Part shown: positions 3,541-19,360 of the stretch, piece by piece | How positions within the stretch are numbered: the stretch's first letter is position 1 | Layout of the letters: the number at the start of each line of letters is the position of its first letter | Assembly (NCBI GenBank): GCA_003117195.1 | Contig: BDSI01000077.1 | Coordinates: 554,841-618,840 of the forward strand | Direction: 5' to 3' | Length of the DNA stretch: 64,000 nucleotides | From: Eudorina sp. 2006-703-Eu-15 | Taxonomy: Eukaryota; Chlorophyta; Chlorophyceae; Chlamydomonadales; Volvocaceae | Position numbers and translations under genes: made by a program | Notes under the pieces: generated by a model | Databases searched by the model: none | The model's input: the letters and a program-made list of their open reading frames with translations, nothing else | What the model was told of the DNA's origin: nothing

Positions 3541-4179
3541 TTGAGTAGTCTTTGCGGCACTTCCAGATGCATCATTTTTGTCTTCTATATTGTCACGATC
3601 TCGTTTGCGCAGCTGGGGCTCATGGAACCGTTAAACTGAGGGCTAGCTCGTTGTCGGGCAACACAGCACCCAGGGCTCAGGACGCTAGGGTCAATCTCAT
3701 GACCACCCCCGAAGAATTCGAATGAACTTGAGCGACCTTTCTGGCCGCCAAGGCACAGCAATTGCTGTGATCTTGATGCTAACGTTGCTGTGGAGTTGAC
3801 CATTTCAATGCCAGGTCTCCGGCAGGCGCCATGAGGACCTCCTTCAGACTTTCTCCACGGATAGAAATGCGCCAACTTCAGCTTTTGAGCTCTACAAAGG
3901 CACTGAAATGCTCTGCTCGCAGTGCCAGCTTGTCTTAGGAACTGGTAAACGGCGGGACCATCGAGCATGGGCCGACAGCCAGACAACGGCTCTAAATGAT
4001 ACGCCACAATTCCTCGAATTCCAATATCTTCTGGGCGTTCGTCTGCGAGCTCAGGAATTTACTTCCCAGACAGAGGATAGTGGACAGGCGGTAGATGACG
4101 ATATCGGCGCTGCACAACAGTTCTTTACAGCCAATGAAAGATACGATGAACGCCAGCATACTCTGGGCATACAGCTGTT
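3541..4179 (-). other. Possible upstream coding remnants of the zinc-finger gene
   Basis: Minus-strand frames look coding-like in pieces, for example SFIGCKELLCSADIVIYRLS followed by KFLSSQTNAQKILEFEELW near 4165-4000, but they are broken by stops and shifts. They lie directly upstream of the zinc-finger pseudogene on the same strand. The left repeat of the Replitron-like element abuts them at 4180, so they may be remnants cut by that insertion. No domain is recognised. Confidence 0.25.
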
Positions 4180-4663: not shown

Positions 4664-6984
4664 CTACTCGTCCGCCGGAGTAATCTCGTTGTCGTTCAGT
4701 GAAGCGGGCGGAATCTCAGGCGGCTGGCTATCGGCGAGCGGCTTGGTCAGCGGCATCTGGTTGTCGGCGGCGCGGCGCACGAGGTCCGCAATGATGCGGT
4801 CCGGATCGAGGCCGCAATCGTCGTCGTCGTCGGTGTCCACGCGAATGGGCGCCGCGCGCGAGTTGCCGTCGTTTGGGGTCGTACGCTTGTTAGGGCTGCA
4901 GAGCTCCGGAATGATGAGACGGGGATACGCGTTGCCCCCCGTGGCTTCGGCAGCCGCGGCCCGCAGCGAGCGCTTCAGAGCGGATTGTGCGCGGCGGTCC
5001 TCGCAGACCTTGTAGCAGTCGGTGCAGGCCCGGTCCATGTGAACGATACAGCGCACCCAGTCACGGGGCAGGATGGTGAAGTCATCCTTGCAGATGCGGC
5101 AGTTGACCTTGTACACAACGTTGGTGTTGAATAGGAACTTAGCACGGTTGACCTTGCTGAGGCACTCCGGGCAGCCGCCGGACTTCAGGACGGCTTCAGC
5201 GGCGGCACCTTCGGAGCTGGACACTTGAACCGTCTTGCTGCAAATGCCGCATTTCGAAACGACGGCGAAGGCAGGCTGGTTGCGGTCGTGGAAGAGGAGG
5301 AGCGGGTCCCGGGCCTGGTTACCGGACGGCGCCCCAACTGCGCGCGCCATTGGGGTCAATGGGGAGCCAGCCGTCTTCATGGTTGACAGCGTCGATGACG
5401 TTCGTGTTGAAGTCTGCGGAGCGGAGGTCGACATTGACAGGTCAGTGCAGGTTGCGTGAAATGAGGAAGTATTTCCCATGCATCAGTTGAGGTACAAGAA
5501 GAAATCAAAGTGTTCGAAAGGCCAAAAGAACCAAAAGGGGCAACTTTGCTGCAATCAAACAGCAGATGCTCACCGACAGCCGGGTTCTCCAAGCCGGCCA
5601 GGTCCTTCTCCGAGCAGTCAAGGTCGCCTAGGAAAGGATGATGCAAGCGACTTGATGGAGCCGGCGCCGCGTCTGCCATTAATGTAGAGCCCTCGGGCAG
5701 GTACGGCTGGATCCGCTGCAGCGGGTTTGAGTGCCGAATCTGCGACTCCAGCTCAGCAGCATCATCGTTGAAGTCCTCACAAAAGTAACGGCAGTTGAAG
5801 TCCGGCTTATCGAAGAAGACGCGCTGGACGTCCGCGGCGACGATATCCTGCGGCGCGGTGATCATCTTCCAAATCGTCTCGGACTTGGTGCGGTCCACGG
5901 TAGCAGCTCCGTTGAAACGCACCATAGCCCAGGTCCCAGATGGATAATATCGCCCGGTCCGAAGCATGGCGGTCAGGGTTGCGCACACGCTGAAGCGCCG
6001 GTTGAAGATGTCCGGCCCACATCGGGCAATGAGCCACTGATACGCCCGCTGGAAGTAGTTGTTCGCCGTCAGCTCCACGCGCTTCTTCAAGGCGGCCTCG
6101 CCGTAGAGGCCATATAGTTGCATGCCTTCAAGGATGTCCTCAGCAGAGACGTTTTTGAACTCCACCCGAAAGTGCTTCTTGCCCGCATCCTTCGTGCAGT
6201 AACCGACCATGCCCACGAAGGTGTGCATATTCTCCTGCGCCAGCGACACCACCTTGACGTGCAGGCTCTCAACGCCTTTGTTGATGCGCCGGAGCCAGTT
6301 GTGAACGGCGTTCCCCGAAGTAGCGTCAATTTCGAGCACGCCCTGCAGATGTCCGTGCTCCAAGTCGGTGCCCCGCTCATAAGCTAAGCAAGAGCGATGA
6401 ACACCAGGGTACAGGTTGATGACGCGGACCGTCTTCTTGTAGGCCTCAACGTCCAGGTCGCCGCCCAATGCCGAAACTGTAATGCTGAGCTGCAGCCGCT
6501 TCACCTTGCCATCGTCGTCCGCGGTAGCACCGTCCTTAAGCCGCTTCCGCTGAACAACCGCACTGACCGGCCCGCCGTAATCCTCCAAAGGGTCATCCTC
6601 GTCTGGTTGGCCTTCGGCGACCGGGTCCGCAACATCACCGTCGACGAAATGCACCCGGCGGCGCTTGCGTCCAGAGGTATTAGTTGCAGGGCTGGGCGTA
6701 GTAATTGGGTCCTCCAGAACTGCCTCCGAAGGCGAAGGGTCTGTTGCCGCTGCAGCAGCACCCTCATTGCGTCGCAGCCTGCCAGAGCGCCGAGCTTCGC
6801 TGCCAGGAGTTGCGCTACGAACGCGAGGCTGCCTATCAGTACTCCCAGGAGGGCGACCGCGGCCCCGGCGAGTGGGCGTCGTCGCTGCAGCATTGCCCGG
6901 AACCGGCGCACCAGCCGGCTCCGTATCGACTGCTTCGGCAAGCAACTCCATAAAGGACATATCTTGCTGCATTTCCTCAACCAA
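4664..6984 (-). CDS. Replitron-type HUH (Y1) transposase, spliced, with C-terminal Cys-rich tail
   Basis: Rep-like single-strand endonuclease expected to nick and join element DNA. The start at 6984 opens a 535-codon frame. Residues 38-48 hold an AT-hook-like RRGRGRPPGS, and 106-110 a basic RKRRR (likely nuclear targeting). The HUH domain follows: LQLSITV about 164-170, HGHLQG at 210-215 (His210 and His212) and VGYCTKD with Tyr262 and Lys265. No Walker A helicase motif is seen. A GTGAGC donor after 5574 and a CCGCAG acceptor before 5413 define a 160-base intron; joining is in frame and adds DFNTNVIDAVNHEDGWLPID. That frame then meets TAA at 5319-5321, while a frame one base away continues as a 200-residue tail with paired cysteines (CGIC, CPEC, CRIC, CTDC) and an acidic stretch. 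The tail is therefore frameshifted, translated from another splice form, or separated by an assembly error. An otherwise intact core suggests recent activity. Confidence 0.85.
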
Positions 6985-7094
6985 ACACGACCGAACACAG
7001 CCTGTCGGTTACTTCGCCAGCACTATAATTAATTATTGTACGGCAATTATAGTGATTTTTAGCGGAAAGACAGTTTTTGGACCTCATAATATGA
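6985..7094. promoter_or_regulatory. Upstream region of the Rep gene
   Basis: AT-rich 110 bases between the Rep start and the right direct repeat, presumably the promoter. It contains TATAATTAATTATTGTA and a 46-base block (7038-7083) that recurs at 7561-7606. No TATA box can be singled out with confidence. Confidence 0.4.
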
Positions 7095-7612: not shown

Positions 7613-8989
7613 GGTACCATGATACTCCAACCTGGGAACGCGCAGAGACATGCATGTAACATATCGTCTTTGCCAGAATGTACCCCACCAGTCCCAAGAG
7701 GGAGCACGGAAACTGAATACAACTGAATTTAACTACGACACCGAAGTGGTATGGATGAAAGACCTAGGAAGGAAATGTATGCCCAGGAACGGGGACCAAG
7801 ACGGACATCGACATCGAGGGGCTTCACAGGCTCAACTACAGCGTGCTCCAGTTCAAGAGATGAATGTTATCCACATTAACGGAAATTGGGAAAGGGACCA
7901 CACGGAAAGACCACACCCCGCAAAGGGTACGGACAGGGCTGCCCTCCGCAGTGCAGAACACAAGGCGACACAAGCACATGCGCCAATGACCCTGTGGCAA
8001 CAAAGAACACAACTAAGATCTCTTCTAGATACAAACATGCAGGGCACTCACCCTTCACTGAGGCGCCACCTGATTAACACTGGGCTATTTAACCACCGGT
8101 TGTACACCCGCAAAGAGATTACGAACGCAACTCTGACCACTGCACTCAACAGTAGGGAACCATACGTCAATAGGCTTTCGGAGAACGACCTCAACGAACT
8201 ACGTCAGGTCACAACCTGGGACAATGGCCTGCTTGCAGCCTCCACGTGCCTCCTTGCGCATCAAACGGGCCGTGCACCGATCACCGGGGTGCACTCCTCA
8301 GTACGCGTGGAGACCGCGCGCGTTCTGTTCCACAGGATCGCGATCGGTGGCCAGCACGGGACCGCTCACGAGGACGTAAAGCAGCTCACGGACCTGGACA
8401 AGGACGTTGTAGTACACCCAACCTCCAAAGCTGCCAAGGTAGCACTGAAATCGGATACATATGCAACTATCGATAGGGTTCCCGCCGGCACCAGGCCAGA
8501 CGTACTCTGCCATAATAGGGTTGAAATCCGCCTGGACGAACAGTTGAGTGGGCCCATAATGCTCATCGCGACCCTGCTTGTAATTTACATCGTTAGCGTC
8601 ACAATGATGCACAATCGCAGACGTCATTTAAACGACAACAAGGTCCCGGCCCTGCCAGAGCACCTCATGGATAAAAAAGGGGCTACGCCGGGAAGGGCTA
8701 GCCAAAGAGATACAAACCCGAGGGGTCACGCAGCACCACACAGGCCACCCCTGCCCTGGCCCCTCCCGTGGAACGAGCAACCACCGGCATACCACGAGAG
8801 GCAAGTGGCTCAGTTTTGCCAGATACACGCCATCAACAACCTGATAGGGTACCAACGTATATCCCCGCAGCATGTACTGTCGTACTGTAACTACATCCAC
8901 CAACAGCTTCGATCATCGGACACCACATCGGAGGCAGCCACCCTCCCTATGGCATTCATACCCAGGGTAAACGGGGGGTAACCCCCGGG

Positions 8990-9874
8990 TACCGCCCTAC
9001 GGGGCTGGGTGGGTAAAGGTATCCTGGGGTAACCCAAGGGTAATTCCATACATTTTATAATTTGTAAATGTAATATATAAGTCCCCTTGTCGGTACTCAA
9101 TTATTGTATTTAGAGTAGTAAGCATTGTGTATGAGCTGTCTAGCCAGAAGTTTCACTGTCAAGTTATAGAGCTATGAATGAAATTGGTGACAACGGCCAT
9201 ATGTAAAGCATGCATTAATACGTGTACCCGTTGTTGTACTTAGTAACCTTTACAAGGTTGGCCTGTATCCCGACCGGGTGTCCAGACGGGCCCAGATAAC
9301 CCCTACCAAGGACTGCACACCCATCCTCCACGGGGGTCATGCAGCCATACCGCCCAAAACATCAGGTTACCAGCACGCCAGAATTGCCTCCCCTGGAAAC
9401 TGCGCCAGACCCACCAAATGACATGGTGGGGAGGGAACTGGGGTTCACAGCATATCACAAGATTGACATTAACACCTGGCACATGCATGAGGGTGTCATC
9501 TTTCACCTGTCCACACAGTCCTGAATGCGCGCGCAGCCCTAGTACATCCGTCCCCCCAATGCCGTGGACAATCTCACTTAGTCCATGTGCATGCGATGGA
9601 TTTCCTACCATGGTGTAGCAGATAAGCAAAGGAGTGAGTCACACCGAACAGTGCCCGTTTTAGCCTGAAGAGTAATCACTCACACCTGCAGGTCTGTGAA
9701 TTGTGTACCCAAGGCCCAAGGCCAGCCACGCACATGAGAACCAGCATCATCATCATTGGGTTGACATCAACACACGACACAGGACTGTGTCACCTTCCAC
9801 CTCTCTGCGCATACAGCCCAAGTCCGTCCCCCAAGTGCCTTGAACACACTTGGGTGAACGCGCTCATGCTGTCT
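8990..9874. other. 3' flank of the oxygenase gene with a diverged internal duplication
   Basis: No gene is called. Two segments, about 9455-9570 and 9745-9860, are imperfect direct copies: each has TTGACAT(C/T)AACAC, a GTGTCA(C/T)CTT-CACCT block and a CCGTCCCCC-AA-TGCC end. On the minus strand they lie downstream of the oxygenase stop, so they may be untranslated sequence or decayed coding sequence. Confidence 0.45.
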
Positions 9875-10839
9875 CTACTGGAAGCACTCTGCAAGGCGGC
9901 CAAAGTAGGCCAGGTGCGTGGTCTCATTTTGCTTGTCGTGAGAGCGGGTCACATACCAGTGGACTCGCAGGGACTGCTGGCCATCAATGCCACGGTCACC
10001 TGCGTGCACAGTGTGCCCGCTCATGAACAGGCCTAGGATGTCGCCAACGTCCAGCTCCAGCCTGATGGCCTTGTAGGTCTGCGCTCCAAGCCAGGTGTCA
10101 ATGCAGGAAGCTGGCGCCAACTCGCTTTCTACCAGTTGCTCCAGCCGCCAGTACTCCTTGAGCACCAAGTGGCTCCCAGGGAAGACCAGAATGCTGACCT
10201 TCTCAGCGGGGGCAATTGCTACAAACCCCCACTGATTCTCACTCATGTCGGTGTGGAAGCCCTGGCGGCGGACTGGCGCCTGCCCCTCTTCCTGCTTGTT
10301 GATTAACAGGTGTGGTCTGCTGAGGCGGATGTCAGGCTCGCGCATCTCGTCCATCACCTCCTTCATGCACGTCTCCACTCCAGCTGCAGAGGAGAAACAC
10401 ATGTAACGGCAGGGTCGGACGTCACATGTGACCGCAGGGTGGGACGTCGCCTTCAAGGTTGCACCCCCCACTGTCAACCCTGCCAATCCTGCCTCCTCCC
10501 CTGTACCCTAGCGGCCAATCTGTCTGCCTATCTACCTTGAAAGCTGACGAGGACGTTGGCGCCTGCCCTGATGGGGCGCTGCTGTCGTTGCTCCGTCCCA
10601 TAGATCGAGTCCAGAATGCCAGTGGGCTGCCCGTGGCGGTCCAGCTCGGGAAGGAACTCCCCGTGAGAGTCCAGTGCGGGCCCCTGGAAGATAGGTAGGG
10701 CCTTGTCCAGGTACTTGACTGCAGCCCGCAGCTCCTCTGGTGTCACCGTCTCCTTGATGGAGGGCACCTGCCAAATGGCAACACCCTGGTTGACCAGGCG
10801 GGGGTAAACAGGGGCGGCACGGGGAAGGGTACACGCCGG
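9875..10839 (-). CDS. 2-oxoglutarate/Fe(II)-dependent oxygenase-like protein, two exons seen, 5' end unresolved
   Basis: Exon A is open from 10839 to 10534 and exon B runs from 10383 to the stop at 9875. They are joined by a 150-base intron with GTAGAT donor and a CTCCTCTGCAG acceptor, and the join is in frame (SFQ then AGVETCMKEV). Exon B has the double-stranded beta-helix signature: GFHTDMSENQWGF with the His-x-Asp metal pair, VSILVFPGSHLVLKE, then LELDVGDILGLFMSGHTVHAGDRG with the distal His, and LRVHWYV with an Arg that could bind 2-oxoglutarate. Such enzymes use Fe(II), O2 and 2-oxoglutarate to hydroxylate small molecules, proteins or modified bases; the substrate here is unknown. TET/JBP-type oxygenases are mobile with some fungal and algal transposons, but I cannot assign this one to that family. 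No start codon is chosen: a TGA at 10840-10842 blocks the frame upstream, so another exon or a broken 5' end is likely. Confidence 0.72.
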
Positions 10840-10842
10840 TCA

Positions 10843-11340
10843 CGCAACGGTACCACAGCAGCTGTGGTCCAGGAGCGGGCCAAGCGTGTTCGCAGCGGTG
10901 CAAAGCAATAAGTGCAGATTCTGAAGGGGATTGACTGTGGCTTTGGGAGGACAGACAATGACCGCCGGTTTCCATGCATGGCTGCACAGGAGTATGGCAG
11001 GACGGGGTGTGGTTGTGAGACAGATAAGGTGGGACAGGCGTGTGAGGGTTTACCTACATTCTTCATACCCTTGGGTTTGGTGGTGTGATGACGAAGGCAA
11101 GTGCATGGATTCGGACAGACAGTACTCTGAGATACACAGCCAGGTTGTAGGATGCCTGTGGCTTGCAGTATGAGGTAGACTACTGGACTGCTGGTTTGGG
11201 TAGCTAGGTTTCATCACCAACAGATGCATGCTGCCATGAGCGGGGATGTGTATGATACGGTGGAATCAAGGCGGTGATGATGAAGTTCACAATGCGGTTC
11301 GGTCCAGCGTGAAACGTATTCTGTAAAATGACGGCCAATG
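10843..11340. other. Upstream region of the oxygenase gene, no gene recognised
   Basis: About 500 bases with no convincing further exon. A pyrimidine-rich stretch ending CCACAG near 10858 (minus strand) could be an acceptor, but the frame it opens looks non-coding. Confidence 0.4.
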
Positions 11341-11664
11341 CCTGGGTTACCCCCTCCGTTACCCCTGGGTAATGATTACCCCTACCCCTGGGTACAATTA
11401 CCCACCCCCCCTTGTCACGAGGGTGGGTGGGTAACCATTACCCCCACCCTCACCCCCCTGGGTAATGGTTACGAGGGGGTTACCCCCCCTACAATGTCAT
11501 AGGGCCTATGGCGTCATGCCTACAATGCCGCAACGGGCAACTTTAACACGATGATAGTCAACCATTACCTGCGGTACAATGTTGTCGTACAACGAGGGGC
11601 GTCCCCACACCTAGCCGTAGTAAGCAGCGGATACACCGTACAGCGAGGAAGCACCAGAGACCAC

Positions 11665-12014
11665 TGGTCTGGTCTGGAGACAACTCACTGCCAATTGTGC
11701 AGCTGTAGTCGCAGGTTCGATTCCTGTACAGATCCCCGACGGAAGTCGGGTATGAGATAGCAGCTAGTTGCTGAGATGTGGTGTTGAGGCTTAGTTGATG
11801 GGCCAAGATACGCACGCTTGATTGGTGGCGATGCCGAACCCTCAAACTCGAAGGATGGTCGGGTGAACGGATATGGCGGAGATCGTGAAACGATTACGAT
11901 GGTAACTGGTGCGGGAAGATCGTGATGAGCGGCCTTTGACGGATGTCCATTGCGGGGCCACATGTGACTGGCCGGACGGTCAGTACAACATGTAACATTC
12001 CATTCCATTCCATT
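11665..12014 (+). mobile_element. tRNA-derived SINE with B box, (ATTCC)n tail and 11-bp target duplication
   Basis: A 350-bp insertion flanked by CCAGAGACCAC at 11654-11664 and 12015-12025. Near its 5' end it has GGTTCGATTCC (11714-11724), a good polymerase III B box; the A box is not clear. It ends in about four ATTCC units. Removing it with one duplication joins STRDH to ILQQV in frame, so it landed in LINE ORF1 coding sequence. It is not a functional tRNA gene. Confidence 0.87.
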
Positions 12015-12242
12015 CCAGAGACCACATCCTGCAGCAGGTCCAAACACACACACCTAGGAACAGTACTGCGCTAACGATCGGATTCCTGGTGCATGACACT
12101 AGACATGCCATCACCATTCGCCGGGCAGGAGACCAATGGTACAGACTGGACTCGGAAGAAACGCAACCCAGACGGCTGGACGACACAGAGTGGGCGCGAC
12201 TCCAAGGGCACGTGCATTACTTGGACTCAATAGATAGACATC

Positions 12243-15200
12243 ATGGCCATAAATCAAATGCACATTGCATTCCGGCCCATTCGCCCTGCGCACGACCCCT
12301 CGCCACACCCAGAGGAACACCACGACACCACGCAAACAGAGGAACCAGCACCGCATACCCCAGAAGCACGTGCGGTAACTCCCCCACAGCCAAGGACAGA
12401 GGACGCCGCAGACGATCCGAAAACCGATCATCCCGACCGCGCACACCGCCTACAAGAAAACACGACCCCCCCGGGGACCCAAGCGCCTGACACACAGGAC
12501 GAGGAAACCGAGCAAACATCGGCCGACACAGGCACCGCACACACAGCCCAAACCAGGCGACCGGCCAGCCCTACAAGCAACCATCGTCAACCCAAACGCC
12601 GCCGTACCCAAGGACCGCCCACCCATTCGATCCTCTACTGCCTTCGACGGCAACAGGGCCTGCCTACGAGGCACCCCACCGGAGGCGATGAGAGACGGAA
12701 CCCAACCGCACCTGACGCACAACACCGTACCTCGCGTCGGCGGCCCGCACGCGACACGGCACCCGACCCTACGAACGCACCACGGGAACCGCAGACCCGG
12801 GCTCCGCAAACCCGGAAGCGGCCCGCCGAAGCGCCACCCCAGCCGTGCCACACCTCGAGCGGGCTCAAGCAGCAACCGATGGCCAAATACCTCCGCAAAG
12901 CCAAGCAACCAAAACCCAACTCCCCTGTACAACACCGGCCCACAACAGCCACGGAAGCGAATCCTGAACAAGTACCCACCCAGCGCGCCCAGGACGGGCC
13001 ACCGCCGACGGGGCTCTTCAAGGTGGTCACACTCAACACCCGGGGGATTCGAACGCAAATGGAAGCAGTCCAGCACGCCATACACGAACAGCAGCCCGAC
13101 ATCGCAGTCCTCACGGAAACCAAGCTAAGCAGCCACCACAGGCGAGCAGTCACTGGGATAAAACACGCACTGAAACCGTACCAAACATACATGAGCAACC
13201 GCCCCCACAACCCAGATATCAGCTCCCGGTCTGCAGGCGTATTGATCTGTGTGTCTGAACGGTTCAGTCGCCAACACAGTGTCACCGCCACGCCGGTGCC
13301 GAATAAGCTCAACGGGTACATTGGACACATCCGCATGGCACCAGCCTCAAGCAAACCCCTCCATGTCGTGGGGGTATATTGCCCGGAAAACTCGCAAACG
13401 CGCAAGCGGATCTACGAATACTGCACCAAAGTAGTACGGGAAGCCTCGACCGGAGGGGAAAACGTGCTGCTTGCCGGTGATTGGAATGCGGTCCTCGATG
13501 AAACCGACAGGTCTACAGGCGAATGCGATTCGGCCGACCTATCGCATCAAAGCTTTGCGCAGGCAGCCAAGCTTCAGCCGGTCAGCTGCCCCAGGCGCGA
13601 GCCCACGTACACCCAGGTGAAAGAAGGAAGCGTCGTACACCAGAGCCGTATCGACGACGTCCTGATCGCCGAGCACACCCTGGAAGAAGTCAGCGAGGAT
13701 GGGCAGCCGTACGAGAGAGTCTACGACTGCGGCGGAATCTTTGACCACAAGGCACTGTGCACCTATCTGCCACTAGCGGGACTCAAGCTGTACCCGCCAC
13801 CAGCTGCACGACCCAACACCGAACAACACCCACACAGCTGGAGCAGAATCAAACTGCCCATCACAAAAGACAGCAAAACCAATGCGAAAGCGGAAATGGA
13901 GGCCTCGCTCACCAGCGAAATTGCGGCGCTCCACGATCTGCTGAAGCCCGCCATGGAAGCGGTGCAACACGCCAGCGAGAACCTGGAGCGGAACATTACG
14001 GAAGAAGAGGCCAGTGCCCTAATGAACGACCTCCGACAGCACCCGGATGTCCGCACCCTGGACGTCACGCAAGTCAGTCATAACCTCGGCACCCTGCTAC
14101 TGAGGTGTCTCACGATACTAGAAAGCCACTGCGACAAAAAGCCCCCTCAAACGGGGAAACTGCACCCACCCAGGGCCCTGAACAAGAAACTCACGAGGCT
14201 GTACAAAGAACATTATGACCTAAAGTCCGAGCTAACACGCCAACTCACCGGCGGGACGACAAACTGGGCCAGAGACCAGAACGACTCAGCGGTGAACCCA
14301 GAGCATAGCGCATCAGGCGAACCCGCCAGATCCAATCCGCAGACCACGCCCGCCGAACGAGAGAACGGCGGGCCGGCCAGGGGTGCGGGGCACGCCACCG
14401 AGGCAGCCGCCGCTGCTGACACCCCCGCAGACAACCTGAGGGCGGCCATCCGGGATAAAGGAGCAGAAATCAGACGCATTGTACAGGAAGTTAGGACAAG
14501 TCGCTGCAAGAAAGCCGCCAAAAGATTCCAGAAACTCCTGAGCAAGAAGCCTAAACAGGCGCATAGGCAGGTCCTCGACGACGACGACGACCAGCCCCGG
14601 GGGATCTCCGCCATTCGACATCCGGCGGATGGGCAAATTCGAACGGACCCGGAAGAGATCCTGGACGCGCTCCACACGCACTTCGCTAAACTGGCGAAGC
14701 CCATCTCCGGACCCCGCACGGGCAAATTCCTGCCAACAGATGCCCCCCGCGACTACCCCTGGATGAAAGCGAGCGCACCCGACCCCATGCGAACGCTAGC
14801 CCGACCGAGAGGAGTTCCAGTCTCCTTGCTCCCCGGGATTGCTGACCCTATGCACTTTAGGGAATGTCTAAACCACCTTGCGCGCAGCAAGGCACCAGGC
14901 CCCGACGGCATACCTAATGAACTCCTCCAGGCGCTCCCGGATGCCCTCCAGCACGTCCTCCATCACCTCATGACCATTATGTGGGCCAAGGCGGAGATCC
15001 CGGCTCACTGGACCGCGTCCGAGACGGTTCTGCTGCCGAAGAAGGGGGATCCGCTGCTCATAAAAGACAAGCGACCCATAGCGCTGGCAAACACGGTGTA
15101 CAAGCTGTACACCAGCCTGGTCACGCTGAATATGGCCCTCTTTAGCGAGCAGTCTCACATCTTCACCGAAGCACAAGAAGGGTTCCTACGGCAGCGCAAC

Positions 15201-18155
15201 ACAGAACGGCAAATACAGAATGTCCTGCACGCCATGGAAGACGCGGCTCTCATGAGTCGGGACCTCATCATCCTGTACGTCGACTTTACGTCGGCGTTCA
15301 ATACGATTGACCAAGATAAGTTGCTGTCCATCCTATATGACCTCGGATACCCCGTAGACCAAATAGAGGTCATCTCAAACCTGTACTCACGGGCGTCTAC
15401 AACAATCAGAACAGAACACGGGCGCACACCCGCGATTCCTATTGAGTGCGGAACGGTCCAAGGTGACACGCTGTCCCCGATGCTCTTCATTATCTTTATG
15501 GAACCATTGCTGAGGTGGCTACACAATGGCGGAAGGGGGTACAGATATGGGTGCCTAACCCCCGACGAAAACGACAGACACCACTTCAGCTCTGGCGCCT
15601 TCGCTGATGACTTGGCCATACTGACCAACAACGTCTCCGACACGCGCGTCCAGTGTGCTAAAATCGAGGCCTATTGCACATGGGGGGGACTAAAGGTGAA
15701 CGCAAGCAAATGCCAGCTACAGGGGATCCTACATGGCCGCGCGCGATCGGACCGCGACCTCAGCCGGGGCCCAGGGAGTAAGCCGTACGACGCCGCACTC
15801 GCCAGGATGCTCAAAGGACAAATCCGCATCGATGGCGAAGCTCTCCCATATGAGCCCCCAACGGAACCTTACAAGTACCTGGGGGTGCACATCACCCCCA
15901 CACTAGACTGGGCAGAGCAGGTGGCCTACACCCGGGCCGAAATCAAGCGCCGGGGGCAAGGAATTGTCGAGTCCCTCGCCACCCCCGACCAGCGCATCAA
16001 CATGATCAAAACGCTGATACATCCTAAAGTTGCATACGGCCTATGCGCTATGGCCTACACGCCACATGACGTTGCCAGTTTCGACTCGCAGATAGCAGGT
16101 ATTGCTAAACGAAGCTACGGCCTGAAGAAGGGATTCCAAACTCGCGCAATCCTAGCTCCCACCGACCAGATAGGCCTAGGCGTAGGGTCGATACGTACCT
16201 TGTACGTGCACCGCGCCACCAAAGCACTCGTCACATCCCTGAACGACCCGGGACGGCTTGGAGTAGTCACGAGAGCCCTCCTACGGGTACAGGGACAGCA
16301 TGCCGGAAACATACCGATCCATCAGCTCAAGCGGGAAAGTCGGTTCTATACGACGCTCAAACAGCTGGCGCTCGTACGTGAAGCCGGTCTGGAGCTTACA
16401 GAGCAAGGGGAACACTATCACCAGGAAGCTAACAGCCTCGCACAACTGCTAGGCGAGGGGCTCATGACCCCAACCGAGCACGCCCTACCGTTCCGATGCC
16501 TTCAACCACTGCTTGAGCTGGGCCTTGACCTGAGAGCCCTACGTGATAACAACACGGGGCAGCACCTCATCGACACAACCCAGCTGCAACGTATAGGGGG
16601 GCGCCGTGTAAGACAGAAACACAAAGTCGCATTGAATAGACTCAGTCTAGCGCTCAGCGAGGACGCCACTACCCGCACGGGAGCGGCAAAGTACCGCAGC
16701 GCTGCACCACTGCCGGCCCATCTCAGAAAAGTTCCCGGAGACCCGACCGTCACAGGGCTCACACGCCGGGGCACCGTCCCCAACCCCCTCCCGGGAGACT
16801 ACATTACCCGGTACATGCGGCCTGCCGGGATGCAAAACCCCGACCAGAATGCGCGCCCCGACCCAGAAAATACCCACCCAGACCACATGAGGCACAGGGC
16901 ACAGGACACTGAAGCCCCTGCACCCGCACCGCTTACAGGGAATGTGCGACCATCACGCCCAGGCAGAAGTCGGAACCCGGACGGAAAGAACCGAAAGCAC
17001 GAGCTCCAAAAACTCTACCTGCGGAGAAACAAGGGCAAGCCGGTGAATGGGATCACGGATACAGACCCAATCGGATGGGTGCCACAACAGGGACCCCTAA
17101 CCGTCGAACACTGTGCCCTCCTGCTGAGGCTCCCCAACCTTCGGGGACTCAGCCAGAGGGTGCCCGACGCGCAACGACTTTACAATATGCTCATGGGCAA
17201 CCAAGACTGGCCCGAGGGGGTGCCAACCGAACATGGGTTCGCCATCACCCAAGCCCTGTTCGGGACGCAGGACAGAGTGGCCCGCATTATAGCCCAAACA
17301 CGAAAGCGAGTGGACGCTGACCCGCCCCCGAGTAAGCAAAAACGGACCGGGAGACATAGCCGACCGACTCACCGTACACACTACACGGTCGCCTGGCAGA
17401 GGACCCTCATACCCAAGGGGGCGCTTCCGCTTTACGAAGCCCACAAGTACACACCGCGCGACCTGCGACCATACACCACAGGAGATGATGGGGAAGGCGG
17501 CATGCTAGACGTTGAATGGGAACCAACGGAAGAGGAGGAAACCAGGCTCGCGTCGCAAGACACATGGGACACCCTGCTATCAGAATACAACCATAGACGA
17601 GAACACGGCATCGAACATGAGCCCGGGCGAGTGAACCAGGCGCAAGATCAACACCTAACGGACGAACAAAGGCAAGGACGATGGGAAGAAGAGTGCTACC
17701 AGACCACCCGAGGACAGCGGACCCTTCGGAGGTACGTGGAGATCGACACCGAAGCACGGAACCCGGAGATGGACATACACCCGACCGGCAAATACACAAT
17801 CCAAATAGGCAAGCACAATTGCGCGCCGGGCGCAGCGCACCCGATATTTAGTGATCCCCGAGACCGGGAACCCGCGGACCTACAAACCGCGAAACGCGCA
17901 TATGTCTACGACCCGAGGGGAAAATGTCTAGGAATGCTCCCAGCAACACGACTGCGCGACATGTGGCTCCGATACACGGCGGCCAAATCTGCTCACCCGG
18001 AAGAACATGCGAGGCTTGCCGCCCCCGGAGGATTCCCCGAAGACGTGGCCCGACTGCTGCTACGATACAGGGACAGGGGCGGGAGCAAAACGAATACCGT
18101 CATAAAAGCGCACGAGAAACGTCTTAGCGAACGGAACGACTCATGCAGGCCATAG
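12243..18155 (+). CDS. LINE ORF2: APE endonuclease and reverse transcriptase, 1970 codons
   Basis: Uninterrupted 1970-codon frame. Residues 1-255 are Pro/Arg/Thr-rich and low complexity. The APE-type endonuclease runs about 260-505: VVTLNTRGIRTQ, AVLTETKLSS (catalytic Glu), LLAGDWNAVLDETDR, QSRIDDVLIAE and GGIFDHKAL (terminal Asp-His). The reverse transcriptase occupies about 865-1180: SKAPGPDGIPNELLQ, ILYVDFTSAFNTID (Asp), IECGTVQGDTLSPMLF and the catalytic GAFADDLAIL near residue 1119. It nicks the target and copies the element RNA there. After a long linker the C-terminal 250 residues are acidic and unrecognised; no RLE or CCHC signature is seen. It overlaps ORF1 by 248 bases in a different frame and ORF3 by 13 bases. 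Full length, intact catalytic residues and no stop argue that this copy was recently active before its ORF1 was hit. Confidence 0.95.
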   Translation: MAINQMHIAFRPIRPAHDPSPHPEEHHDTTQTEEPAPHTPEARAVTPPQPRTEDAADDPKTDHPDRAHRLQENTTPPGTQAPDTQDEETEQTSADTGTAHTAQTRRPASPTSNHRQPKRRRTQGPPTHSILYCLRRQQGLPTRHPTGGDERRNPTAPDAQHRTSRRRPARDTAPDPTNAPREPQTRAPQTRKRPAEAPPQPCHTSSGLKQQPMAKYLRKAKQPKPNSPVQHRPTTATEANPEQVPTQRAQDGPPPTGLFKVVTLNTRGIRTQMEAVQHAIHEQQPDIAVLTETKLSSHHRRAVTGIKHALKPYQTYMSNRPHNPDISSRSAGVLICVSERFSRQHSVTATPVPNKLNGYIGHIRMAPASSKPLHVVGVYCPENSQTRKRIYEYCTKVVREASTGGENVLLAGDWNAVLDETDRSTGECDSADLSHQSFAQAAKLQPVSCPRREPTYTQVKEGSVVHQSRIDDVLIAEHTLEEVSEDGQPYERVYDCGGIFDHKALCTYLPLAGLKLYPPPAARPNTEQHPHSWSRIKLPITKDSKTNAKAEMEASLTSEIAALHDLLKPAMEAVQHASENLERNITEEEASALMNDLRQHPDVRTLDVTQVSHNLGTLLLRCLTILESHCDKKPPQTGKLHPPRALNKKLTRLYKEHYDLKSELTRQLTGGTTNWARDQNDSAVNPEHSASGEPARSNPQTTPAERENGGPARGAGHATEAAAAADTPADNLRAAIRDKGAEIRRIVQEVRTSRCKKAAKRFQKLLSKKPKQAHRQVLDDDDDQPRGISAIRHPADGQIRTDPEEILDALHTHFAKLAKPISGPRTGKFLPTDAPRDYPWMKASAPDPMRTLARPRGVPVSLLPGIADPMHFRECLNHLARSKAPGPDGIPNELLQALPDALQHVLHHLMTIMWAKAEIPAHWTASETVLLPKKGDPLLIKDKRPIALANTVYKLYTSLVTLNMALFSEQSHIFTEAQEGFLRQRNTERQIQNVLHAMEDAALMSRDLIILYVDFTSAFNTIDQDKLLSILYDLGYPVDQIEVISNLYSRASTTIRTEHGRTPAIPIECGTVQGDTLSPMLFIIFMEPLLRWLHNGGRGYRYGCLTPDENDRHHFSSGAFADDLAILTNNVSDTRVQCAKIEAYCTWGGLKVNASKCQLQGILHGRARSDRDLSRGPGSKPYDAALARMLKGQIRIDGEALPYEPPTEPYKYLGVHITPTLDWAEQVAYTRAEIKRRGQGIVESLATPDQRINMIKTLIHPKVAYGLCAMAYTPHDVASFDSQIAGIAKRSYGLKKGFQTRAILAPTDQIGLGVGSIRTLYVHRATKALVTSLNDPGRLGVVTRALLRVQGQHAGNIPIHQLKRESRFYTTLKQLALVREAGLELTEQGEHYHQEANSLAQLLGEGLMTPTEHALPFRCLQPLLELGLDLRALRDNNTGQHLIDTTQLQRIGGRRVRQKHKVALNRLSLALSEDATTRTGAAKYRSAAPLPAHLRKVPGDPTVTGLTRRGTVPNPLPGDYITRYMRPAGMQNPDQNARPDPENTHPDHMRHRAQDTEAPAPAPLTGNVRPSRPGRSRNPDGKNRKHELQKLYLRRNKGKPVNGITDTDPIGWVPQQGPLTVEHCALLLRLPNLRGLSQRVPDAQRLYNMLMGNQDWPEGVPTEHGFAITQALFGTQDRVARIIAQTRKRVDADPPPSKQKRTGRHSRPTHRTHYTVAWQRTLIPKGALPLYEAHKYTPRDLRPYTTGDDGEGGMLDVEWEPTEEEETRLASQDTWDTLLSEYNHRREHGIEHEPGRVNQAQDQHLTDEQRQGRWEEECYQTTRGQRTLRRYVEIDTEARNPEMDIHPTGKYTIQIGKHNCAPGAAHPIFSDPRDREPADLQTAKRAYVYDPRGKCLGMLPATRLRDMWLRYTAAKSAHPEEHARLAAPGGFPEDVARLLLRYRDRGGSKTNTVIKAHEKRLSERNDSCRP

Positions 18156-19360
18156 GTGCGGACACGGAGCGCTTCGCCTCGCCCTTGAACGTCGCCAAGT
18201 GCACAAGAGTATACCATGCAAGATTCCCCGAGGACAAACTGTTTGGAGCAAGCCACGACGCATACCAACAGCCATTCAGGGGTGCCTCTGTCGCTCACCC
18301 GGAACCAACCCCCGAAGAGGGACACCATGCCATGCGATGGGCCCTGGGATGGGCTGACGCAGAGCGCAACCACACAGACCCCACGGCCACGCTGCTCGTG
18401 TTCCCTGCATCTAAAACGGCACCCTGCACCCGGTACCTACGGCACGACCTGGTCACTCACGTCGGGACAATCTCGACCGACAGGAGTGACAGCAACCTAA
18501 GCAACGACGCAATCTGGGAAGACGTCCCCTCTTACCCCAACGGCCTCGACCTGATCCTCGTGGCCAACAAGACTGAAGGCAGTGTCGTGGAACCACTTCG
18601 CCAAGCAATCGACTCCATAACGAAGCCGCCCCAGGAACGCACAGCAATGGACGAGACCCAGGACACGGACCTGCGACTACCCCAATGGGTGCGCAAACAC
18701 ATACGTAGGTTGAAAGAGAAGTACGAAACCGGCTGTGCACCTAGCCTGAGCTCCCGGAGATGTGACAACCTGACCGACGACGAACGATGCAGCGCACACC
18801 TGATGTTCCCAGCAAAAATAGCTCTGCGCCATGACGCTGAATCCGGCATATACACTGATGGGTCTGTCCAAAAGATCCAGGTTGATGAAGCCGAAGCGCA
18901 AGTCCTTGGGGCGGCCGCGGTCGATGCCCTCACAGGCAAAACGCTCTACATAGATGTTAATGCAGGAACGACGGGATGCCAAAGCATTACACGTTGCGAG
19001 CTCAGTGCTATCCACCAAGGTCTTACTATGAGAAATGACGAGGAGGGCCTCAACAACGCACCCATTACAATCTGGACTGACTCAGCCGCGTCACTGTTTC
19101 GGATAAAGAAAATGATAAATCAACCTACGAAACTCGCGCTCAGTAAACACAAAGACCTACTTACGAACATTGTACGGATTCTGAAAGAACGAGCTGTAAG
19201 GAAACTCAAGACACATCTTCTGAAGGTAAAATCCCACACAGGAATAAAATACAATGACGCGGCTGATAGAGCGGCAGTTAAGGCTGCGCGCCGGGACGCG
19301 CCCGACGACGCCACGTGGCAAACAGAAACGTCTGACAACGGGTTCAAAGGAGCCGGTTGA
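18143..19360 (+). CDS. LINE ORF3: RNase H domain protein, 405 codons
   Basis: Starts at an ATG 13 bases before the ORF2 stop, in the -1 frame (the overlap reads ATGCAGGCCATAG). It could be made by termination-reinitiation or by frameshifting from ORF2. The N-terminal 230 residues are unrecognised. The C-terminal part is an RNase H fold: GIYTDGSVQ (first Asp, about residue 237), TRCELSAIHQG (Glu, about 285), IWTDSAASLF (Asp, about 311) and KVKSHTGIKYNDAADRAAV (His and last Asp, about 360-370). It would degrade element RNA in the RNA:DNA hybrid. The catalytic set is complete. RNase H is more often fused to the end of ORF2, so a separate overlapping ORF is unusual. Confidence 0.9.
   Translation: MQAIGADTERFASPLNVAKCTRVYHARFPEDKLFGASHDAYQQPFRGASVAHPEPTPEEGHHAMRWALGWADAERNHTDPTATLLVFPASKTAPCTRYLRHDLVTHVGTISTDRSDSNLSNDAIWEDVPSYPNGLDLILVANKTEGSVVEPLRQAIDSITKPPQERTAMDETQDTDLRLPQWVRKHIRRLKEKYETGCAPSLSSRRCDNLTDDERCSAHLMFPAKIALRHDAESGIYTDGSVQKIQVDEAEAQVLGAAAVDALTGKTLYIDVNAGTTGCQSITRCELSAIHQGLTMRNDEEGLNNAPITIWTDSAASLFRIKKMINQPTKLALSKHKDLLTNIVRILKERAVRKLKTHLLKVKSHTGIKYNDAADRAAVKAARRDAPDDATWQTETSDNGFKGAG

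Follow-up and report, generated by a model that had tools for sequence, protein, structure and literature searches.

A long interspersed nuclear element (LINE) that encodes a Josephin domain lies in the stretch of Eudorina sp. 2006-703-Eu-15 DNA analyzed here, called the window (contig BDSI01000077.1, labelled C77, positions 554841-618840; 64,000 nucleotides of a 181-Mb genome in 3,033 contigs). This copy is dead and twice interrupted, and the domain layout of long-frame copies supports an assignment to the Dualen/RandI type. The Josephin domain is probably a deubiquitinase module acting for the element, as judged from sequence comparison and a structure model. Its coding region is organized as follows (window coordinates; SINE, short interspersed nuclear element; EN-RT, endonuclease and reverse transcriptase):

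7623..8944, + strand: coding region for the element's N-terminus (the open frame, 7623-8981, runs on past 8944 into insert 1; the start is that of the frame, not a mapped 5' end of the element)
8553..8609, + strand: transmembrane-like segment (mean Kyte-Doolittle hydropathy 2.34 over 19 residues, ~60 residues before Josephin)
8790..8944, + strand: Josephin piece 1 (local profile 51.3 bits, match 8790-8936, profile positions 1-49 of 163)
8945..11504, no strand assigned: inserted DNA transposon (insert 1), 2,560 bp, terminal inverted repeats CCCTATGGCATT / AATGTCATAGGG
11505..11664, + strand: Josephin piece 2 (GNF-N-MIVNHYLRYN; local profile 41.2 bits, match 11506-11694, positions 51-113 of 163)
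11665..12014, + strand: inserted SINE-like repeat (insert 2), 350 bp, B-box-like GGTTCGATTCC, CATTCC tail
12015..12235, + strand: Josephin piece 3 (local profile 58.6 bits, match 12014-12220, positions 100-162 of 163)
12230..12240, + strand: ATAGATAG, with 4 extra bases relative to relatives, placing Josephin out of the EN-RT frame

The window was read directly in full from about 6.5 to 18.0 kb and in parts up to 19.7 kb, and its three forward frames were scanned with local profiles, including a Josephin profile of 163 positions built from relatives. Each of the three pieces matches this profile on its own, on the + strand and in the profile's order, which is beyond chance; the Josephin order proposed in the first-pass annotation is thus confirmed, as is the presence of the domain in a LINE. 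Piece 1 contains the oxyanion Gln (8802-8804) and the catalytic Cys (8817-8819) in the motif C-x2-H-x2-N-N, and piece 3 the catalytic His (12104-12106) and Asp (12149-12151); the codons for Cys, His and Asp are all intact. The profile match of piece 2 extends 30 bases into insert 2, and this piece is 95.0% identical to loci L044 and L043 (L### denotes loci of the same genome, P#### protein relatives and C## contigs). A 201-residue Josephin query of element family A found 114 matches in the genome, including all three window pieces (piece 1 at C77:563594-563788), and PF02099 found 64, all above cut-off. Pfam Josephin exceeds its cut-off in piece 3 alone (30.0 vs. 26 bits); at E <= 1, the frame of piece 1 (452 aa) gave no Pfam match and that of piece 2 two weak, unrelated families.

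The domain is in three pieces because the transposon and the SINE-like repeat split it. Insert 1 is flanked by a CCT target duplication (8942-8944 and 11505-11507), and its flanks adjoin in L043 and L044, close relatives of the window copy that are uninterrupted at both insert sites. Its first 756 bases have at least 46 matches in the genome (best 40 of 1,271 candidates scored); several begin at base 1 or 2, and most span only the inner ~200 bases. Insert 2 is flanked by the duplication CCAGAGACCAC (11654-11664 and 12015-12025) and carries GGTTCGATTCC, which we take to be a tRNA B-box-like motif; ARAGORN called no tRNA on it. It has at least 41 genome matches including its own (two C54 rows being one place; best 40 of 315 candidates scored), at least 39 other places in all, and several matches cover at least 345 of the 350 bases. 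The extra bases after piece 3 are ATAG near 12236, seen as 4 gaps in alignments to relatives; the L012 frame is uninterrupted there. The frame is broken a second time between 18128 and 18155. Beyond ~19340, just past RNase H, the copy no longer resembles L011 (C289A), and the part with the restriction-like endonuclease (RLE)-like domain is missing. The two insertions, both frame breaks and this loss of similarity make the window copy a dead element.

Beyond Josephin, the window copy encodes the following domains:

12234..18155, + strand: EN-RT open frame, 1,973 codons
13017..13793, + strand: APE (apurinic-type endonuclease) domain (Exo_endo_phos 41.3 bits; local profile 301.5 bits)
14838..16088, + strand: reverse transcriptase (RT) domain (RVT_1 96.2 bits; local profile 593.1 bits)
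18134..18439, + strand: PCIF1-like domain (local profile 115.3 bits; frame shifted relative to EN-RT in the window copy)
18848..19279, + strand: RNase H domain (local profile 137.4 bits)

The original organization can be seen in copies with long frames. L012 (2,325 aa) carries Josephin (493-646), Exo_endo_phos (907-1117) and RVT_1 (1575-1860) in a single frame, and L019 (2,370 aa) does the same. The copy on C97 is a single frame of 3,376 codons, the first 15 being flank; it is 5'-truncated relative to the C14 and C51 copies and is 99.99% identical over 10,210 bp to the C14 copy, in which the frame breaks after RT. Both C97 and C14 copies end in a (TAT)n tract whose length differs between them, as in LINE copies. 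The C97 frame joins Josephin to APE, RT, RNase H and an RLE-like end: its C-terminal 752 residues (L029) contain RNase H (Pfam, 60.4 bits), and its C-terminus shows a CPVC..H..C, RPD, E..Y..D stretch, presumably the RLE pattern. A local RLE-like profile matches 98 of the 124 domain-mapped proteins; none of the matches in Pfam, NCBIfam or PDB is to a named RLE. The polyprotein order in long-frame copies is a hydrophobic N-terminus, Josephin, a basic linker, APE, RT, the PCIF1-like domain, RNase H and a CCHC plus RLE-like end. Since APE and an RLE-like domain occur in one polyprotein, the layout supports the link to Dualen/RandI already made in the first-pass annotation; the RT tree described below covered relatives only. 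Placement of Josephin in a separate first open reading frame (ORF1), also proposed there, does not stand, as L012, L019 and the C97 copy all carry the domain in the EN-RT frame. In many own copies, stops close the frame between domains. As a separate observation, a second LINE is nested in L022:87-9332:+, its EN-RT following the Josephin-APE part in a frame that stays open for 3,082 codons.

Relatives were collected with RT queries. The RT of a family-B copy scored 233 proteins, of which 120 were listed, from Pleodorina starrii, Haematococcus lacustris, Parachlorella kessleri and metagenomes among others; these and four own frames form the domain-mapped set (n = 124). The RT of L012 scored 85 proteins, 31 of them new, including Cymbomonas. 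The Josephin region of L012, used as a protein-database query, gave no match among 696 candidates, whereas the RT regions did find relatives.

Several lines of evidence identify the domain as Josephin. In long-frame copies, the Pfam score is 42.1 and 43.9 bits for family A and 26.6 bits for family B, and all 14 A1 members match at E <= 0.1. A PDB profile search returned Josephin structures; a single-sequence search was weak (best E 0.27), and all five of its matches were Josephins. The structure model (predicted local distance difference test, pLDDT, 89.7) has a Josephin fold by structural comparison, and the oxyanion Gln and the catalytic Cys, His and Asn/Asp align in order with those of ataxin-3. 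A profile comparison of Josephin (PF02099) with OTU, a structure prediction and a look at intact copies had all been proposed with the first-pass annotation, which named, beforehand, pieces that do not form one domain or a preference for an unrelated fold as counting against it. Uninterrupted copies in the genome carry the pieces as one domain, and both profile and fold searches favor Josephin. An OTU identity was rejected: OTU matched neither the window pieces (Pfam), nor the forward frames (two local OTU profiles), nor any of the 14 A1 members at E <= 0.1.

The catalytic positions are strongly conserved. The search found Josephin in 67/124 proteins, and in the resulting alignment of 95 rows the catalytic columns belong to the best-conserved positions of the domain (Cys 83/83, His 92/92, Asp/Asn 92/94), with the Asn near the Cys invariant (83/83) and the neighboring His present in 70/83. 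For ten pairs of own copies, the ratio of nonsynonymous to synonymous substitution rates (dN/dS) was 0.13, 0.14, 0.18, 0.18 (dS saturated), 0.20, 0.33, 0.49 and 0.64 (dS only 0.02), and was incomputable in two with saturated dS. At the level of sequence comparison, Josephin is under purifying selection. The same comparisons, together with the model, establish the identity of the domain, its shared frame, the near-invariant Gln-Cys-His-Asp and the recent dispersal of the elements that carry it. The domain is presumably a working ubiquitin hydrolase.

The strongest hint about function comes from relatives in which another protease occupies the Josephin slot. Of the 71 relatives with 1,000 or more residues ahead of RT, 58 have Josephin and 13 do not. 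Pfam OTU is found in the slot of P0010 (31.3 bits) and P0019 (23.5 bits on the cut-out domain; cut-off 23.3), with P0009 assigned by similarity to P0010. C48/Ulp1 (cut-off 20.7) occurs in P0015 (25.4 bits), P0050 (26.5 bits on the cut-out domain) and, below the cut-off, P0086 (18.4 bits), with P0035 assigned by similarity. For P0038, P0042 and P0054, among the 13, and P0022 and P0053, outside them, the OTU-like label comes solely from motif and mutual similarity; the sequences of P0022 and P0042 begin inside the OTU-like domain. Two proteins combine classes: P0053 has Josephin and an OTU-like domain, and P0015 has C48 and a sub-threshold OTU. Local profiles found five Josephin, one OTU-like and six C48-like domains in the 31 new relatives; the C48-like P0148 and P0149 (Caenorhabditis remanei) score 16 bits or less, and Cymbomonas P0145 scores 35.6 bits with no Pfam C48 match at E <= 0.01.

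A quick RT tree (44 rows of 77 labelled, 33 near-identical ones dropped and P0086 not included; Shimodaira-Hasegawa-like approximate likelihood ratio, SH-aLRT, support only) requires eight changes of protease label, the least possible being four. Shuffled labels average 10.6, with 2/200 as low. Starred branches force at least five changes for Josephin, three for OTU and two for C48. Taken alone, Josephin clusters weakly on the tree, since 47/500 shuffles are as low. The tree does not separate gain from loss, and part of its OTU count depends on the OTU2 group (P0022, P0038, P0042, P0053 and P0054). By these labels, Josephin, OTU and Ulp1 have been exchanged several times in one slot, and the OTU and Ulp1 replacements carry their own active-site motifs. 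The repeated replacement of Josephin by other ubiquitin or ubiquitin-like (Ubl) proteases argues that deconjugation itself may be the selected role.

A second feature of the region is what precedes the protease. The transmembrane-like segment noted in the first-pass annotation is real in the window, where the N-terminal region, including this segment and the Josephin junction, aligns with hydrophobic segments and junction in L002 and L012. Counted wherever mean hydropathy over 19 residues reached 1.6 or more no further than 200 residues upstream of the protease, such segments are enriched in relatives (24/60 proteins vs. 11/300 downstream control stretches, near-identical Haematococcus rows retained); the feature is not general, 36/60 being without one. 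A 2A peptide is present in 21 of those 36. The 2A-like DxExNPG[PA] occurs in 22/124 proteins, always before the protease, so that a transmembrane-like segment or 2A precedes it in 45/60, with both only in P0031. P0069 and P0072 each have two Josephins in tandem, the first of them immediately after 2A. A search of the own genome for exact DVExNPGP, which did not extend to the DIE form, gave no match. In the linkers between protease and EN, K[KR]x[KR] is found in 18/37 (dereplicated) vs. 5.9 in shuffles; neither [LIV]xGG (1 vs. 2.7 expected) nor GG (12 vs. 15.3 expected) is enriched.

The Josephin module would remove ubiquitin from the element's own polyprotein or ribonucleoprotein, or from host factors at a membrane. 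The large product might thereby escape proteasomal decay or a ubiquitin-based restriction, and the transmembrane segment, or the 2A site in other elements, would place or free the Josephin module apart from the nuclear EN-RT part. More tentatively, and with slightly less than even confidence, Dualen-type LINEs in general may carry a near-obligatory, exchangeable deubiquitinase module (Josephin, OTU or Ulp1), membrane-anchored or freed by 2A, as a counter-defence against ubiquitin-based LINE restriction, convergent with viral deubiquitinases. The interpretation given in the first-pass annotation is, overall, partly supported.

A different role is unlikely but has to be considered, namely that Josephin mainly processes the polyprotein, with a cut in cis that releases the nuclear EN-RT from an N-terminus anchored in the membrane, in the manner of papain-like proteases of RNA viruses. 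Hydrophobic segments and nuclear enzymes are indeed joined in one polyprotein, motifs resembling nuclear localization signals are enriched just after the protease, and the 2A peptide before the protease in some relatives makes separation seem useful. However, the lack of [LIV]xGG or GG enrichment in the linkers speaks against such a cut, 2A precedes the protease in 22/22 and so is no substitute for a cut between protease and EN, and the Josephin, OTU and Ulp1 classes are all known for ubiquitin or Ubl substrates. It is improbable that Josephin is a host-gene passenger or a fold relic without enzyme function, for instance a ubiquitin-binding or structural module. Catalytic residues missing in some copies, degenerate-looking first Josephins in tandem pairs and the replaced His after the Cys (13/83 rows) would fit a relic, but not the conservation of the catalytic columns, the dN/dS of 0.13-0.49 in seven pairs or the replacement by other cysteine proteases with active-site motifs of their own. 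A chance juxtaposition or gene-prediction artefact, which the three pieces out of frame with EN in the window might suggest, is scarcely credible and is refuted by the same order and frame in own copies, Pleodorina starrii, Haematococcus lacustris and metagenome proteins.

Several observations weigh against a deubiquitinase module working for the element. No own copy was seen to be complete in a single frame from the 5' end as far as RLE (C97 is 5'-truncated, and C14 is broken after RT). Family C stays below the Josephin cut-off in a whole-protein scan (L022, 24.6 vs. 26), the first structure model, from a shallow alignment, was poor, and Glu replaces Asp in two relatives. Among own copies, L032 is without the Cys and L041 without the N-terminal part, and L024, like the 36 relatives above, has no transmembrane-like segment. 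The OTU2 group is weak in Pfam (P0054 13.4 vs. 23.3 bits, P0038 and P0053 no match), and no protease was found in P0094, P0097 and P0113, three of the 13 long proteins without Josephin. Moreover, Ulp1 can act on SUMO, so that the common substrate may not be ubiquitin.

In comparison with known systems, Dualen is the closest. Kojima and Fujiwara reportedly described it in 2005 as having RLE, APE, RT and RNase H together with a cysteine protease. The present element likewise combines APE with an RLE-like domain, and it shares RNase H, presumably the cysteine protease, and green algal relatives; it differs in that the protease is identified as Josephin, with OTU or Ulp1 alternatives, preceded by a transmembrane-like segment or 2A, and in its PCIF1-like domain. 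2A peptides are known in other LINEs; no literature search was aimed at 2A or transmembrane segments in LINEs. Viral papain-like and OTU proteases are cysteine proteases within replicase polyproteins, with a possible deubiquitinase role and membrane segments nearby; they belong to RNA viruses, and their cis-cleavage is established, whereas it is hypothetical for the present element. Ataxin-3, ATXN3L and JOSD share fold, Gln-Cys-His-Asp/Asn residues and motif spacing, but are cellular proteins and not part of a retrotransposon polyprotein (16-25% identity in structural alignments). Bacterial JOS proteins (PcJOS, PaJOS and BpJOS in PDB) also have the Josephin fold; two are titled ubiquitin clippases, and no link to mobile elements was seen in the matches. 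Dualen families occur in all core-Reinhardtinia species studied (PMC8226300), and RandI-linked SINEs have (ATT)n tails, which the (TAT)n tail here resembles (PMC3747384). NeSL and Utopia-1_TSP LINEs are described with an N-terminal Ulp1-like protease (PMC4640811); they are similar in combining an N-terminal Ubl-type cysteine protease with RLE, and differ in having no APE, another protease class and nematode hosts.

Protease-bearing LINEs are thus already known; the Josephin class and a PCIF1-like domain in a LINE were not met in the literature searched. A full-text search, with most journals outside its coverage, showed no paper placing Josephin in a retrotransposon among the matches listed; in one of the papers in which both words occur, the passage concerns a wheat gene near a SINE. 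No paper was found for Dualen with OTU, exchange of protease class beyond this combination having had no dedicated search, and none naming 'pcif1' was among the matches listed for PCIF1 with retrotransposon. With Josephin, the cysteine protease in a little-understood group of LINEs receives a precise identity, and three protease classes are seen in one slot. That related elements swap these enzymes suggests that reversing a ubiquitin-type tag is a need of such genomic parasites; if deconjugation is the function, ubiquitin or a Ubl would be predicted to limit LINEs in algae. A membrane-like or 2A device would also be tied to a retrotransposon for which the nucleus would otherwise be the expected place of action.

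Two further domains of the polyproteins deserve mention. The PCIF1-like domain is found by local profile in 99/99 proteins having both RT and RNase H. In the own genome, it lies at 18134-18439 of the window, at L011:880-1719:- and at L050:1201-2241:+. Pfam PF12237 (cut-off 31.1) matches L011 (33.0 bits), L050 (35.1), P0058 (52.3) and P0145 (52.0); it is not listed for the family-B piece L029, where the call comes from the local profile only. A PCIF1 search at a stricter E-value gave none, nor did the L011 piece against PDB sequences. The position of NPPF, which we take to be the catalytic motif of PCIF1, is mostly altered (WNVPA, AHPxx, ANPEY), and the domain is likely a degenerate or altered methyltransferase. 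PHD fingers (PF00628) occur in some Dualen-like polyproteins (P0025, P0029, P0031, P0032, P0058, P0119 and others) and might possibly serve chromatin targeting; the finger of P0058 (1110-1156) follows RT and precedes the PCIF1-like domain.

Other elements are found in or near the window copy. Insert 1 contains a 210-codon frame on the minus strand (9875-10507) with no Pfam match at E <= 0.1; by motif, it looks dioxygenase-like. A 543-codon frame on the minus strand (5377-7008) matches the Replitron HUH endonuclease (PF21859, 76.1 bits), with Replitron_C at 16.3 bits below its cut-off, and by these matches is a replitron-like transposon. Beyond this frame, a further fragment (3617-4158) matches the 5' region of family-A copies at 87% identity.

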